Positions 19,529-41,100 of a DNA stretch of 64,000 bases are shown one piece after another. The stretch comes from Albifimbria verrucaria. Lineage: Eukaryota > Ascomycota > Sordariomycetes > Hypocreales > Stachybotryaceae. Below the pieces are notes generated by a model. The model did not search any database. It saw only the letters and a list, made by a program, of their open reading frames with translations, and was not told the DNA's origin. How positions within the stretch are numbered: the first letter of the stretch is position 1; every line of letters begins with the position of its first letter. The stretch lies in the NCBI GenBank assembly GCA_020081605.1, contig JAHREC010000016.1, forward strand, positions 682,001-746,000, in the 5' to 3' direction. The translations under genes were made by a program, and so were the position numbers.

Positions 19529-20458
19529 ACAAAATCAGGAGAGCAGAGCGCTCAATCATGATGAGCTTGTAAATGATATTATCTGTTCTGGGAGCGACAT
19601 GGGCTTTTATCAGTGGGTCGCATCTGGCGTTGTTGATTGAGTTGTGGTACGGGGAGAGTGTATGATTTTTGAGACGTGGGCTACCATATATTAAAAATGA
19701 ATGACTAAATGACGAGCATGGCCATGGTGGCGGTTACATGTATTATTAAGTGGTGGTGGACGTGACATTTGGTGAGGGCAATTCATATATGTGAGGCTTT
19801 GTCATACCTCGTCATTTTCATTTCAACTCACTCACATAGCCCTTTACCACAGATCAATCATAGTCGTTTAAGACCTTTTGGCATAAGGTATCATCGCATG
19901 CTTTACACCTCATCTATTTGATCTTCTATATTTGTGCTCTTCTTGGCTGGGCACTTACTCTCGTGGTTCAACAAAGTGATGTCCAGGGTAAGCGCCTAGC
20001 CTCAGCCGCAGTTGATGTCTTGGGTTACTGAATATCCATAGGTAACTGTTGTTTTTTATAGCTAGGGTGTTTAAGAGCTCTATATCCAATACATTAATTA
20101 ATGCACAATGCAATTTGTCGCTTGCCGTGCTTCCATGTACTTCATCTAAGAGGGTGAGGGATGCGGGCACCAACCAAGACTTCGCCATCATGCACCAGAA
20201 CTAGCGTTCAGCTCTGTTTGCTGTTATAATTGGTCTCGTGCCGTTGAAGGCTGTGTAATTTATCCAACGCCACAATAGACTACCTCTCCTTGGGTGCCAG
20301 CGTGGCGGCGTGTGTCGTTGCATAGCCTCCTGGCCTTGCCTTGCACAGAGCCTTGTCAGCTATCTATATTGCGAGCGGAGGGCGCCTCAAGCGCCCTTGT
20401 CATGGCCTTTCGCATTCTGTATTACTGAAATCTTCAAAGGTCTGTATTGGCTACGACC
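19529..20458. other. AT-rich intergenic region before the NLR gene
   Basis: About 930 bases with no supported gene. It turns visibly AT-rich at about 19,680, after the Rtt106 3' UTR. This change of texture marks the left side of the NLR/Galpha block. It must contain the NLR promoter. Confidence 0.5.
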
Positions 20459-23276
20459 ATGGATAGCTTAGCTGTGGCAGCAGCAGTCATTCAGTTCGTC
20501 GAATTCACGGCTGGTCTCATCTCCAAAGGCATCACCATACATTCATCGTTGACAGGCCTAACTAATGATTGCGAGGAGCTGGGAAGAATTACTGAATCAC
20601 TAGTGCAGAACAGCCATGAAATCAAAGAGTCCTTTGGAATATGCAATCGACAGCAACTGACTGGGAACGACAAGGATCTGGAACAAATCGCTTCGGATTG
20701 CCAGGTCGTTGCGACCGAATTGTTGGACGCATTGACTAAGCTCAGATCGAAACATCCTAGAACGAAATGGCGTTCCTTTCGACTGGCCCTTCAAGCGGCG
20801 TGGAGCGAAGGAAAAGTAAAGTCTCTGGAAAGTAGACTCGATCGATTTAGACAGCAATTAATGGTAAACGTCTTGAACTCTTTGAGGCGAGAGGCGAAAA
20901 GGTCGATCCAAGAGCAGATTTTGATGCGAGAATCACTTGAAAGGGTCGAGCAACTTCAACGCAACACTATCTCTGTCGGTGATCTCTTTATTAGGAATGT
21001 CATGGAAGGCGAGCGGTGGAGGAATGATTTGCTTCAGATGATACACGAGCAAGGTCAAGCAGACTTCCAGAATACCGATCTGGCTAGCATTGTACACGGT
21101 GCAGCCACAACTCCTGATGCTGTGGTTGTGCAGAATAGGCGGATTCGGGAACGTGTAATGCGCAAGTTGGCGTATAGAAACATGGCTGATCGGGAGCGAC
21201 GCATCTGCAAGGCGCATCAACGAACGTTTGAGTGGATTTTCAAGGACCCCAAACCTGGATCTAAGCCGTGGTCGAGTTTCAAGTACTTCATGGAGCATGA
21301 GGGTGAGATATATTGGATCACAGGCAAACCAGGCTCTGGAAAGTCAACACTGATGAAGTATATCCGGCATCACCCCAAACCACTAGCTTGTTACGCACGT
21401 GGAGTGGAAATGACCCTGTGATTCAAGCTGCGTACTACTTCTGGAACAGTGGTTCAAAAATGCAAATGTCAGTTATCGGCCTTCTACAGACCGCCCTTCA
21501 CAACTGCCTTCAGCAACTACCCGAGGCAGTGCAGGCAGTTCTACCAGAGAGGTGGGAAGCAGCAACTCTCTTTGATGTGGACGATTTCCTTGGAGCTTGG
21601 AGGAGATAGCCCAGGCTTTGAGGAGACTCGTCACGGAGGTCTGCCCTGAAAAGAAGTTTTTCATAATGATTGACGGACTTGACGAGTGCGCTGAAGATCA
21701 GACACAATTGATTGAGTTGATAGAAGAACTTGCACAAGATACAAACAACCTTAAGTTATGTGTTGCGAGCCGTCCATGGAATAATTTTGAGGATGCCTTC
21801 AAGAGCCGGCCGAGTCTAAGGCTTCAGGATCTTACGTCAGGCGACATTGAGCACTACATCAAATCGAAATTCACTGCCAATGAGGGGTTCGCAGAGTTCC
21901 TAGTACTCGAACCTTCAAAAGCAAATGAACTGATGGATGCCATTTCCACAAAGGCCAAGGGTGTTTTTCTCTGGGTGCATCTTGTTGTCCAGTCTCTGCT
22001 CGAAGGCTTGACAAACGGAGATGGAATCCGGGATCTCCGTATAAGACTTGCGGAGCTTCCACCCAAGCTCGAGGATCTTTACACGAAAATATTGAAGAGT
22101 CTGGAAGATAAGTATTTGGACCATGCATCTCGGATTTTCCAGATTGTCAGGGCTTGTGATGACTCTCCCACACTCAAGTGCATCGCGCTCGCCGACTTGG
22201 AGGATACAACTAGGGCTATGCAAGCACCAGTCAGACCAATTCCCGAGCCGACATTGACTGCTTTGTGCAAAAATATGAAGAGAAAACTGAGCAGCCGATG
22301 TGGTGGACTTCTAGAAGTCTCATTGACCAACCGGCAACGAGCCATTCGCAGGAAACCAAACTATACCGATTCTTGGCAATGGCAGTTCATGCTGGATTTT
22401 GAAGATAGTCAAACAGACTCCTCATCGGAAGACGAGACCGATGAATCAGTTTGCGAGGCTTCTATAGCCGACTTAGAAGTTCAGTTTCTTCATAGAAGCG
22501 TTCGAGATTATATCCTGGATTCTGAGATATGGTCCTGGCTGGTGTCGATCAATGCAGAACCCTTCAATCCCCATCTTTCTTTACTTAAAGCAAATCTTCT
22601 ATTGCTGAAGGGACTGGATCCAGCATCGCTATCCGGTCAGGAGATGGGCTTTCACGTTTGGATGGCGATCAAGTACGCAAAACGGTCTCTTAACGCATAT
22701 AACGAAGAGGACGAGACAATAGAGGTTGTATCCTTGCTTGATGAGTTAGACCGCGCTGCTATAGCTCTGACAAGCCCATCCATATGGAGGGTTTCAACCT
22801 TTACAGATCGAATCGGTGCCCTGGATGGCTACCATTGGTCATTTTTCTTCCTCACACACACCTCAAATCCAACTTTTCTGTGCTTGATGGCGGTATGTGG
22901 TATCCACCAGTACTTAGAATTTCGCCATCAGAGATTAGAATCGAGAAACAAGGTCGAAAACATGAAGGAGAGACGAGCCAATAGCCAGAAACCTCTTTTG
23001 ATCGAGGCTGTATCGGCGACACCCAATATTCCGCAAATATATGGCTACGGTGAGATGCTCGGCCCTCATATCGAGGTTATAAAGACGCTATTAAAACAAG
23101 GAGAGGATTGCCATAAACGACACGGTCGCGCGTCCGCGTGGGAGAGAGCAAACATGGTAGGATATTATACCATCGTCAGACTGTTTGAGGAATACAGCGG
23201 CAAGCCGCGGTCACCCCCATCATATGAAAAAGCAAAGGCGACTCCAGCAATGACAAAACATATTGCAAGCCTATGA
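20459..23276 (+). CDS. NACHT-domain STAND protein (fungal NLR) with fungal N-terminal domain
   Basis: A single-exon gene of about 939 residues after correction, starting at the ATG of MDSLAVAAAVIQF. Residues 1-250 form an all-helical domain resembling the fungal STAND N-terminal domain (HeLo-like type). The NACHT ATPase follows: Walker A GKPGSGKST at about 289-297, Walker B FFIMIDGLDE at about 401-410, and a sensor-like LCVASRPW. A winged-helix region and the LEVQFLHRSVRDYI block typical of fungal NACHT proteins come next. The C-terminal 400 or so residues show no WD40 or TPR array; only one ankyrin-like unit (HIEVIKTLLKQGED) is visible. Such proteins act in non-self recognition and regulated cell death in fungi. 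Two single-base losses break the frame, at about 21,377-21,379 and in the G run at 21,599-21,600. The gene is convergent with the Galpha-like gene 700 bases downstream, which has the same kind of N-terminal domain. Confidence 0.88.
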
Positions 23277-23981: not shown

Positions 23982-26011
23982 CTATACGACTACCTTCATA
24001 ATAGTCTCTCCTAAGGTCTGTATGTTACCATGGACCAAATCCGTGTATATAACTCTCAGACCTTTACGCTTCTCCTCATCTTTCATCTGAGAAGCAAAAA
24101 GCTATACAAATAGGACAAGTACTCTTCCATCGTCACTGTTTGACTTTTGCTCTGTGTAGGCAAATCTGAACGCCAGTCTTGAACGGGTGCAAGCTTCATG
24201 GTCTCCTCAAGCAAGTCAATGTGGGTCATGACAAGAATGATAGATGTCTCCTGAACCGTTCATGGTTGGCAATTGATTCAAAGAGAACCAACTGCTCTTC
24301 CATGCGGTTAACATTCTCAGCTTCGTAAAGAAGCTTACAGTATGCAGTTGTATCCACCGTGAAAAGGACTGTTGATATATTCTCAGCAACCCGCAGCCAT
24401 TTCCTCCGCTGGGATCTTAGGCCTCCTAGATCGAACACACTAAGTGTGTAGTATTTCTCATCCCAAGAGGTTTCTATAATATCGATAGTCGTCACATGCG
24501 ACTTCAGTATGTCCGAAATGGTTGGCACAAAGCCTTGCATTGCAAGGTTGTGAATATCATCTGCAAATGACTTAGCATTGACATTCAATTGATATTTGAA
24601 GCGGCATCGGTAAGCCTCTTTGAAGCCAGCATCGTCCCACAAGGAAGCTATTGCAAGCTCTGTCTCTTCTGTCAGCGCATCTACCAGCGATGGCTGCAAT
24701 TGGATCGTATGAGCATCGAAATACTTTCGATCATCCTCAAGAAACATTCCCAACGATTCCATAGCGTCGAGAATAGCCCTTGTCGCCTGCATGATATTCG
24801 TGAATATAGTTTCAGTAAAGAGGCCCTTTCCTTCACGGAAAAGTCTCCATTGTGGTAAAGTTTTAGGATCTTGAGCAGAGTCGACTTTCCCGATTCTGAT
24901 GTGCCAAGTAGCATTACCTTGCGTTGTGGAGCATTTTTAACTGACGCAGTATTTGATTGCAGAAACTCGCCAGCCTGCGTTTTTGGGTAACGTTGACTCT
25001 TTGACCTCCGTAGGAAGCCAGCGCAGGCACTCGGAACATCCCACGTAATGCATCTTTGGTGCTATATTCTGAATTAGTCGTATTAAACGTCTGATCTGAA
25101 TTGCCGCGCCTGTGCGAGATTCGAGGTGGAGTTGGGTTGCTGTCGTTGAAGTTACTGGCCTGGTGCTCCTCGGGGGCCTGAGACTCTGAGGTTGAGGGTC
25201 GAGCCCTGCGTCTGGTGCAGATTGTGCTCCTATGTTTGGCCGGATATCGGTACTGATCGAGGCTTGATCATGCTGCCGGCCAGCTCTAATAATTTGTTTC
25301 ACATTTGACCGGTGAGCTACTTGGTAAACTTGTGAGCCCAAGAGAACAGGATCGAAGTCGAACTGAATGCTGAGAGCATTTGTGTTGTCAGATAGGATGC
25401 TTAGTCGATCGGCAAGGCCTATGACCGATGAAGTGCAGTCCCTGGCCAACTGCAACACATCTTGGCTCTCTTTTTCCTCAATTTTTTTCTGCTGTTCGTG
25501 CCATGTGCTGCTGTATAGTTGTTAGTCCTGAGGATATAGAAATAGAGAATTATTGGCAAACCAACCACTGAACAGCTTGTAAGAAGAGGCTCAAAGCATT
25601 GACCTGTCTGTCAACCAGCGTTGTATATGTGGCCACGTCACGCTCATTCCACAGATACGACAACCGATCATGCAGGTCTGGCGTTTCATTGTTAGATATT
25701 AAGAAAACCTCGAGGTTATCTAAGTACTGCTCCAGTGTCGTAATCATAGGACAAAAACACTCCAACGATTTATCTATCTGCGTAGCCAAGTGGTTATATC
25801 TCGGGTCATTGACAGAATGGGTCGACTTCCATCGCGTTAATTCTGCAATGACTGCTTGGATGATGTATAGCTGTCCGATTAAAGTCGTTACCTGCAATGG
25901 TGCATTGCGATCCGCGGTTCTTAGGTCGCTGAGCTTGCGGATGCTCTTTGCCACAACGTCAGCAATGGAAATGATCGAGCCGACCAACCCAACAACAGAG
26001 ACGGGATCCAT
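23982..26011 (-). CDS. Fungal STAND-type N-terminal domain fused to a degenerate Galpha-like domain
   Basis: Exon 1 is 26,011-25,566 and exon 2 is 25,510-23,982; the intron has CTAAC and CAG. The corrected length is about 659 residues. The N-terminus (MDPVSVVGLVGSIISIADVV, then a helical bundle to about residue 200) resembles the N-terminal domain of fungal NLRs. A Ser/Asn/Pro-rich linker leads to a heterotrimeric Galpha-like domain: P-loop GTSESGKST at 352-360, switch II DLGGLRSQRRKW at 510-521, and RTSIILVMTHIDLL near 573-584. The intersite distances match Galpha-i (26 residues between catalytic Arg and Gln sites, 65 from Gln to NKxD). The catalytic Gln is Leu514, the catalytic Arg is His488, NKxD is THID, and the TCAT loop is not evident. 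Nucleotide may still bind through the P-loop Lys/Ser, but hydrolysis should be poor. Five single-base losses occur at about 25,196, 25,026, 24,817, 24,247 and 24,096; all five must be repaired to join the domains. No N-terminal myristoylation Gly is present. Confidence 0.85.
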
Positions 26012-38171: not shown

Positions 38172-41100
38172 ATGGCCAAGAGAGATCAGCTCTCGCCCAT
38201 GGATCACTTCTCGCCAGTTCACCAACCCGACGAGGGTTACTCCGAGGACCCCATCAATCCTACCGCCCACTTCGACCTCCCCGTGCTTCTTTCAACGCTG
38301 AGATCTCCCGCGGACCTTCCAACATGGCTCGCAAGCAACGCTGCCGTGCTTCCTGTCAAGATCCGAACTGGTACGAGCCTTCACACCAGTATACCCAACG
38401 AAAGCTCATTGTATGCTAACCATATCGTAACAGAACTGACTATGGCCCTTCTTGACGAGCTGCCAACATATGCCATTGCCGAGATCGTGCAACGACTCAA
38501 CCCTAGACTATACATCGACTTTATCCGCTACCTCCCCTGAAATTTGCCTGAAAGTGTTATCTTACCTTGATCCAGTTTCCTTGGTTAGCGTACTGCGAAC
38601 ATGTCGAGCCTGGTACGACCTGGCACTTGACCGAAAATTATGGGAGAGGTTGTATTACATGGAGGGTTGGAAGGCTATACGGAGCGAGATTGACGCTTGG
38701 GAGGCCAAGGTCAATGGTGGTTTGAACAACTCGATAAGTCATCTTCACCGCATCCAAAAGTCAGAAGGCGGGCACACGAGTAAAATACGGGCGCTGCTCA
38801 ATGATGATGAGGACCTCGAAATGGCCGACACAAGTACCACCAGCAACATAACTGGGGAGACGCCAGTCCTGTCGCCTAATTCGTCTTTCAGTTCCACCCG
38901 ACCAAGCGCAGGGCTGTTTGGAGACATGGATTTGGACAATGCGTCGTCCAAAGGCAAGAGCGTAGACAGGAGCCTGAGCACACCCGACTCCAGGAGTAAG
39001 CGCAAGGAAACGGATGATACGCACATGGTCTCATTGCCGCCGATCCTGGCAAGCGATTCTCCTGGTGGCATTCTTCGGTCAACCTTGGGAATGTGGGATG
39101 CTAACGGCTCCCGATATCGCATTAATTGGAAATATCTCTACAACATGAGGCGACGTCTCGAATCGAACTGGGAGCTCGGCAAGTACACGACTTTCCAACT
39201 GCCTCATCCGAACTTCCCGAAGAGGGGCACCAGGAGTGTGTCTACACCATCCAGTTCGACGCAAATTATCTTGTCAGCGGAAGCAGGGATCAAACAATGC
39301 GTATATGGAATATGCACACCCGCAGACTGGCTCGGCCGCCCCTTACCGGCCACTCTGGCTCTGTACTATGCCTTCAATTCGACGCTGACCCCGACGAGGA
39401 TCTACTCGTGTCCGGCAGCAGTGATTCGAATGTGTTTATTTGGAAGTTTTCAACCGGTGAGCTCCTCCAGAAAATCACCAGAGCACATCGTGAGTCTGTT
39501 CTCAACGTCCGGTTCGATCACCGTGTTCTTGTCACGTCCTCGAAAGACAAGACCATCAAGATCTTCAACCGTCGGCCACTACGGTATGGTGACGTCGGAT
39601 ATGGACCGCATGATGCGGTAGTTAACCCGGTGGCCACCAACCTCAAGCGGTATGGGTATGAACCGGACCTATCCCAGGAGTTGCCAATTAAGCCTCCTTT
39701 TACGATGATTGCTCGACTCGACGGACACACAGCGGCAGTCAACGCTATTCAAATTCGTGATGAAACAATTGTCTCCGTGTCTGGGGATAGACACATCAAA
39801 ATCTGGAACTGGCCTAAGGAAGTCTGCACCAAGACGATCCCCGCGCACGAAAAGGGAATCGCGTGCGTCGAGTTCGACGGAAGGAGGATCGTGAGTGGTA
39901 GCAGCGACTACGAAGTGTGCATCTTCGACGCACCTACTGGGCTCAAGGTCGCACAATTACGTGGGCATGCTCATCTGGTGCGTACAGTTCAGGCAGGGTT
40001 TGGCGATCTCCCCTACAGCCAAGCCGAGGATGAGGCCGAGGCGAAGGCAGTAGACGCACGCTACTTTAGGGCTGTAGAAGCGGGAGAGATTAATCACGAG
40101 GGGAGCGGCGAACTCGTCACAACCGGCGAGCGAATGCCGGCAGCTCACGTCCTAACGAAATTCAAGCAACCGGAGCCAAGATTCCTCCTGGTGGAGGAGG
40201 AGGCAAGAAATATGGACGCATCGTCTCGGGTTCGTATGATCAAAGCATTATCATCTGGAGACGTGACAAAGAGGGTGTTTGGAAGCCAGCACATCACCTT
40301 CGCCAGGAAGAAGCAGCTGCAGCTGCTCAGCGTCAGTTCGCGGCTCCGTCTGGTTCCGCCGCGGCGACTGATGCAGGCAATATCCCACTTCACCCATCTG
40401 TCAGACCACCAAGCCAAACACCCACCCCTACGACGCCTGGCGGGCAGCAACTGCCTAGCATCGGCCACCTTGCTTACCTAGCCCAGCTACCTCTCCCTCT
40501 TTGCCAGACCCGCAGTCTCGCCAGTCTGCTGCTGCCTACATGCAACTCATCGACCAAGTCGTGCCTCTTGGCCAGGCAGCCCTCCAGCAAGCGTTGGCAC
40601 AGCATCCTGCAATTTTAGCATACCAGAACTACCTGCAGGCTGCCATTGAGCGTGAGCCGTCGCCTTTTATGCGGACACTACTGAGGCACGCCGTGGCAGA
40701 AGCGCTGGGACGCTTACAGAGGCAGAGACTTTTCAACAACCCGGGTGCTCCGCCCCAGAGTCCAGGCTCGTCAGCGGCCGCTACCGCAGGTTCTTCCACA
40801 TTGCCAAGTAACCCAGGCGAAGCTGGTAGCAGCCACCAATCTGTGTCACCTGTTGCAGGTCCAGGCTCCCAAGGTGAATCTTCTGGAACGCCGGGTGCTG
40901 CCGGTTCGGCTCTTGGTGCTCAGCCTTTAGTTTCGACGCCGGCCCCTAATCAAGCTCCGCAGCTGCAGCAGCAGCTTCCGGCTGCTGTCCATGCTCAAGC
41001 TGCAGCAGCGCAACATCACCCACACATGGCCGAGACGGAGATAGCCCCGCTCGGGTCTTCAAGCTGCAATTCGACGCACGAAAAATCGTGTGCTGTAGCC

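Follow-up and report, generated by a model that had tools for sequence, protein, structure and literature searches.

A putative STAND-type helical domain fused to a Galpha-like domain in Albifimbria verrucaria and other fungi

Could a fungal protein of the STAND type carry a heterotrimeric Galpha-like domain in the place of its nucleoside triphosphatase (NTPase)? The question is raised by a gene on the minus strand of a 64,000-nucleotide (nt) stretch of Albifimbria verrucaria DNA (contig JAHREC010000016.1, positions 682,001 to 746,000; hereafter the window), for which a reading of the sequence alone had proposed a STAND-type N-terminal domain and a Galpha-like domain in one protein. Pfam matches along pieces of the gene, its relatives and a second copy on another contig of the same genome (C41) confirmed that the two are joined. 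Directly established are the fusion, a further copy of it in the genome, how widely it occurs, that the hydrolytic residues are lost and that, among close relatives, the N-terminal half diverges more slowly. As the best explanation, to which we give a probability of about 0.4, we propose a four-helix domain of the PF17111 kind (HeLo-like, STAND-type), followed by a linker and a hydrolysis-poor switch derived from a fungal Galpha, which would control the helical bundle.

The fusion gene and its second copy

The gene runs from an ATG at 26011 to a stop codon at 23984-23982 and is made up of the following parts.

23982..26011, minus strand: whole gene, with N-terminal helical domain, linker and Galpha-like domain (reading frames, Pfam pieces, same order in the C41 copy and in relatives)
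25566..26011, minus strand: exon 1, 446 nt, helical N-terminal domain of about 148 residues (open frame and structure model)
25511..25565, minus strand: intron, 55 nt, GT...CTAAC...AG (read by eye)
25195..25510, minus strand: first part of exon 2, linker with the motif FDFD..Y..RS.L, FDFD at 25351-25362 (conserved in relatives)
24917..25200, minus strand: further part of the linker in a different frame, borders approximate (frame reading; no significant Pfam match)
24840..24923, minus strand: Galpha P-loop GTSESGKST at 24879-24905, in a different frame (PF00503 on piece 24684-25061)
24229..24840, minus strand: Galpha helical domain, switch I and switch II, the latter DLGGLR at 24415-24432 (PF00503 on piece 24229-24936)
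24110..24250, minus strand: Galpha G4 region, THID at 24215-24226, in a different frame (PF00503 on piece 24086-24250)
23982..24101, minus strand: C-terminal piece (...GLRVIYTDLVHGN...) and stop (frame reading; no Pfam match; the relatives' end DLVH/DLIH is similar by eye)

Removal of the 55 nt intron kept the frame and gave a product resembling the sequence of the relatives. A search with exon 1 returned nine of these at an E value of 0.001 or better among 479 candidates; PF00503 was present in all nine, and the linker motif residues F, D, F, D, Y, R, S and L were invariant in them. Candidates for our searches were restricted by length and shared words, and the family counts given here are samples.

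Because no single frame reads through the window copy, the two halves might be neighbouring genes joined by misreading or misassembly. Against this stands the second fusion copy on a different contig, which has an exon 1 59% identical to that of the window copy, the same domain order and an intron that by eye sits at the same place; exon 1 has two matches in the genome. In addition, both halves were found in one predicted protein in 44 relatives from many sources, these being gene predictions and not transcripts. On the second copy and these relatives, we rejected two separate genes as extremely improbable.

The frame changes of the window copy, about five in approximately 1.1 kb of exon 2 (between ~25200 and ~24100), would also be expected of a decayed pseudogene, that is, of a dead copy in a real family, and the switch I (KSHVTTID) and G4 (THID) of this copy differ from those of the family, in line with decay. 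However, the seven coding pieces contained zero nonsense codons, and frame changes were not confined to this gene. Elsewhere in the window, a conserved F-box/WD40 gene (38440-40481, plus strand) changes frame at a GGGG run where an intron would not fit, and its Pfam matches to the F-box and to the WD40 repeats lie in different frames; the gene adjoining the C41 copy is divided between two overlapping frames, one with an ACT half and the other with a formyl-transferase half; and the C41 copy itself has, by eye, at least two frame changes. Since the F-box/WD40 gene and the neighbour of the C41 copy are affected too, we attribute the frame changes of the window copy to assembly indels as a likelier cause than decay, and regard a dead window copy as unlikely.

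The Galpha-like half and the N-terminal helices

The pieces of the gene were searched apart against PF00503, whose cut-off of 48.8 bits was passed alone only by piece 24229-24936 (E 4.5e-42, 144.8 bits, model 57-250). Piece 24684-25061 matched model positions 15-60 (E 5e-9, 36.1 bits) and piece 24086-24250 positions 250-285 (E 0.002, 17.6 bits). The three pieces are collinear with the Galpha model, which places P-loop, switch II and G4 in Galpha order. The sequence-only reading had spaced P-loop, switch II and NKxD as in Galpha-i; the order stood, but G4 reads THID, and switch II (DLGGLR) lacks the catalytic Gln. The P-loop GTSESGKST fits GxxxxGK(S/T). The protein starts with MDPVSV and does not have the MGxxxS myristoylation site of subgroups I and III. 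None of the seven pieces of the gene gave a Pfam match to NACHT or NB-ARC with an E value of 1 or better, and a search of NCBIfam gave nothing useful. The PF00503 pieces and the missing NACHT/NB-ARC match thus bore out a Galpha-like C-terminal half where NACHT or NB-ARC would be.

A profile of the nine relatives matched Galpha-i1 from the PDB at E 4e-77. The AlphaFold model of one relative (P0006) had a mean predicted local distance difference test score (pLDDT) of 56, its Galpha part consisting mostly of blocks of 70-91 with some of 46-66. In Foldseek, this model matched structures of Galpha-q and Galpha-i at E 4e-21, with a target-normalised template modelling (TM) score of 0.82-0.85 in the best four matches and of at least 0.80 in 30 of the 50 matches listed, so that the predicted structural match of the C-terminal half to Galpha was found through a relative's model.

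When exon 1 of the window copy (about 150 residues) was searched alone, no significant Pfam match was obtained, the best being RPW8 at E 0.05. Its structure model (pLDDT 75, predicted TM score 0.67) consists of four long helices at residues 3-33, 39-64, 70-106 and 113-148, the last with a break at 123. Among the relatives, PF17111 scored 29.5 bits in P0121 (cut-off 27.2), 24.0 bits, below the cut-off, in P0130, and E 0.09 in P0002. In hhalign, comparison with six N-termini of the same genome scored 32.0, versus 22.7 for the reversed control and at most 25.6 in 20 shuffles. Four of these six genes (L028, L030, L032 and L037) had an NPHP3_N/NACHT match downstream, in a search that left out L034, while L038, which is NB-ARC-like by eye, gave no Pfam match at E 0.01. 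The relatives, the profile comparison and the four-helix model together point to an N-terminal domain that is PF17111-like and of the STAND type; the fungal STAND helical domain proposed from the sequence alone is upheld by them, but not by a Pfam match of the window's own exon 1.

Two narrower identities were discarded. SesA was unsupported for exon 1 (hhalign 16.8, versus 24.3 for the reversed control), and classical PigL_N proteins as closest kin did not rise above the controls in hhalign, though Pfam links relatives to PF17111. Elsewhere in the genome, two PF17111 matches with equal scores lie 8 kb apart in opposite orientation (C20:63167 and C20:71581), the former preceding the NPHP3_N/NACHT frame of L032. 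A further gene (L024, C41:3908961) has a PF17111-type N-terminus, a downstream motif that by eye resembles the FDFD..Y..A linker of the family, and a RhoGAP frame (E 3e-24).

Alternatively, the N-terminal domain may serve generally for scaffolding or dimerisation, play no part at membranes or in cell death, and belong to an ordinary signalling adaptor. The same kind of domain is found on other sorts of protein, being joined to PNP_UDP_1 in P0142 and, as an N-terminal region, to ankyrin repeats in P0154, and the evidence on the fold is not specific to MLKL-like bundles. Foldseek of the N-terminal model gave no match at E 0.001 or better. The first helix argues the other way: it is hydrophobic and conserved in the family, with charged residues absent from positions 3-16 in 59 of 61 sequences, and such a first helix is described as membrane-active in HeLo/HELL domains in reviews (PMC12881547 and PMC10197012). 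We hold the scaffold reading to be doubtful.

Spread, altered residues and divergence of the family

Searches with the Galpha part of P0006 returned 104 proteins at E 1e-10 or better (3002 candidates), and with the N-terminal part of P0082, 52 proteins at E 0.001 or better (3721 candidates). A profile of the N-terminal domain, trained on nine of the 154 distinct proteins fetched, matched 102 of the 154, and 97 of these 102 aligned to Galpha. The other five comprise P0142 and P0154, with other partners, P0121 and P0138, with weak PF00503, and P0137, for which PF00503 is listed. Forty-four members have an M[DE]P start together with an alignment that covers 200 or more of the 353 Galpha columns, and in 34 of them it covers at least 260. 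Named members belong to Clonostachys, Stachybotrys, Xylaria, Xylographa, Periconia, Sclerotinia and Talaromyces, and two are named Aspergillus flavus and A. oryzae (P0131 and P0143). The classes looked up for four named members were Lecanoromycetes, Dothideomycetes, Leotiomycetes and Eurotiomycetes, and Xylaria and Clonostachys we take to be Sordariomycetes. The family is widespread, with named members across Pezizomycotina.

In a tree, the Galpha parts of the family formed one clade beside fungal Galpha subgroup I with a local support of 0.873, on long family branches and with an insecure root, the distant root row sitting on a near-zero branch. Three Galpha loci with a normal DVGGQR occur in the same genome. 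More divergent Galpha-like matches were seen at C33:2588806, C4:761299, C8:2077746, C15:3926121 and C15:5477256, and neither exon 1 match of the genome falls at these five loci.

Residues were counted in the numbering of a canonical fungal Galpha (Galpha-i1-like), over the 353 Galpha columns and only for rows aligned at each site. Family rows kept K46 (88/89), D200 (70/76), G203 (73/76), R208 (73/75), K210 (66/75), W211 (75/75) and D272 (73/76). The P-loop G42 was kept in four of 89 rows, with Ser in 74; N269 in one of 76, with Thr in 63 and His in 12; R178 in 41 of 74; and Q204 in two of 74, eleven other residues occupying that site. Since position 204 holds so many residues, Gln there seems to have been released rather than selected against, whereas position 42 looks fixed for Ser and position 269 for Thr. 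R178 and Q204 occurred together in none of the 69 family rows aligned at both sites, as compared with 42 of 52 other proteins, and the rows that have Q204 (P0090 and P0145) carry W and Y at 178. Outside the family Q204 was kept in 43 of 52 proteins, and four of the nine exceptions (P0013, P0019, P0080 and P0081) look like N-truncated family members.

At positions 178, 204 and 269 the window copy has H, L and T and the C41 copy C, C and T; G4 is mostly TKxD in the family. Cys and Ala of the G5 TCAT box were found in 0/24 and 0/20 aligned family rows, respectively, the remaining rows being unaligned there, and none of 97 family rows aligned to the last 14 Galpha columns, the receptor-coupling tail, where local alignments may stop short. 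Neither the TCAT box nor the tail was seen in the C-terminal piece of the window copy (23982..24101).

As described in PMC8584482, a Galpha in which this Gln is changed to Leu can no longer hydrolyse GTP, and (N/T)KxD counts as a G4 motif. For these two reasons, the Galpha half of the family should bind guanine nucleotide with little or no GTP hydrolysis. Because the GTP-hydrolysing residues are lost across the family, the domain would be at most a nucleotide-binding switch that hydrolyses slowly or not at all, and the ordinary Galpha-type switch of the sequence-only reading could not be retained.

The two halves also differ in their rate of change. In 161 pairs drawn from the 44 members at an N-terminal identity of 0.5-0.95, mean identity was 0.50 in the Galpha part versus 0.64 in the N-terminal part, with Galpha the lower in 98%, and in 776 more distant pairs it was 0.34 versus 0.37, with Galpha the lower in 63%, the pairs not being independent of one another. 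The canonical group I Galpha of the genome is 91-96% identical to its counterparts of three other species. Kept binding residues together with fast change elsewhere would fit a sensing Galpha half and a conserved output half, but partly relaxed constraint would look similar.

The main alternative is that the protein resembles the extra-large G proteins (XLGs), an atypical Galpha that would act by binding Gbeta-gamma, or by sequestering it, and have no GTPase cycle, the N-terminal domain only positioning it in the cell. The switch II surface RSERKKW, to which R208, K210 and W211 belong, is mostly kept despite the loss of Q204. In contrast, positions 213, 214 and 216, which we take to be Gbeta contacts too, vary (kept in 44, 8 and 28 of 75 rows, respectively), and binding to a conserved partner does not predict faster divergence of the Galpha part. 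Plant XLGs, according to PMC8584482, have an extended N-terminal domain and a Galpha-like half, bind Gbeta-gamma and act in defence. We judge an XLG-like mode of action to be possible, on the unlikely side.

An NLR-type gene at 20456-23276 (plus strand) converges on the fusion gene in the window; it has a weak SesA match, an NPHP3_N NTPase and DUF7791, and, by eye, frame changes of its own. Around the C41 copy, over ~8 kb to one side and ~10 kb to the opposite side, no NLR was seen among 27 open frames of at least 130 residues, three of which are the copy itself and ten of which were scanned with Pfam. A conserved pairing of the fusion gene with an NLR was rejected, as the window copy adjoins such a gene and none was seen among those frames around the C41 copy.

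Proposed action and comparison with known systems

Under the explanation that we favour, a four-helix bundle under a hydrolysis-poor Galpha, the Galpha half would bind guanine nucleotide, hydrolyse little or none of it, and act as a slow or one-way switch, sensing or regulatory, by which the N-terminal bundle is restrained or set free. That bundle would be the conserved output; its probable site of action is the membrane, reached by way of the uncharged first helix, as has been proposed for the bundles of HeLo, HELL and MLKL. By analogy, defence or allorecognition would be the likeliest setting, and a role in self/non-self recognition or death signalling is plausible. Bolder, and unlikely, is the proposal of a separate class of intracellular sentinels in Pezizomycotina, in which a one-way, nucleotide-loaded Galpha without GTP hydrolysis would have replaced the STAND NTPase and would release a HeLo-like pore-forming bundle, the fast-diverging Galpha half sensing self/non-self or serving anti-parasite defence.

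If this is true, fungi would gate a four-helix death bundle by means beyond amyloid signalling and the NTPases of NLRs, and parts of G proteins would have been recruited to fungal cell-autonomous defence, as XLGs were in plants. Even otherwise, a widespread Galpha family with natural catalytic loss is a natural experiment on which functions of a Galpha depend on GTP hydrolysis, and counts of fungal Galpha genes based on PF00503 lump these fusions together with true subunits.

Each part belongs to a known domain family; no description of their combination with systematic catalytic loss as a family was found in the literature searched (titles and abstract starts of open-licence papers). G-alpha, GTPase and heterotrimeric are unmentioned in the main text of PMC9815663, PMC12881547, PMC10197012, PMC12258605 and PMC4986451. 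Unusual fourth Galpha proteins are mentioned in older texts (PMC3100592 and PMC2566311), and Galpha-domain ortholog groups limited to A. niger, to A. flavus, or to A. flavus and A. oryzae were reported in 2017 (PMC5307856). The fusion family too has members named after the latter two species; compared by description only, the extra Aspergillus groups and the fourth Galpha, GaoC, have no N-terminal fusion or residue loss mentioned in the available part of PMC5307856.

With fungal Galpha subgroup I (GNA-1/FadA type) the family shares the fold, the helical insert, the P-loop Lys, DxxG and the switch II surface. Unlike that subgroup, it adds an N-terminal domain, starts with MDP instead of MGxxxS, alters Q204, G42 and N269, has no aligned TCAT box or receptor-coupling tail and diverges far faster.

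XLGs are, to our knowledge, found only in plants, and we know of no four-helix bundle at their N-terminus. The overall plan of an extended N-terminal half before a Galpha-like half, in proteins that act in defence, is the same, whereas the XLG N-terminus is Cys-rich with nuclear localization and nuclear export signals, according to PMC8584482, and that of the fusion is modelled as helices.

Fungal NLRs (PF17111 Helo_like_N/PigL_N, SesA, Goodbye) have the same broad kind of helical N-terminus followed by a nucleotide-binding domain, and the same genome encodes a PF17111 and NACHT protein (L028); unlike in these, the nucleotide-binding half of the fusion is a Galpha. MLKL and the plant MLKLs, whose partner domain is a pseudokinase, resemble the fusion in placing a four-helix N-terminal bundle on a partner of nucleotide-binding fold that has lost catalysis.
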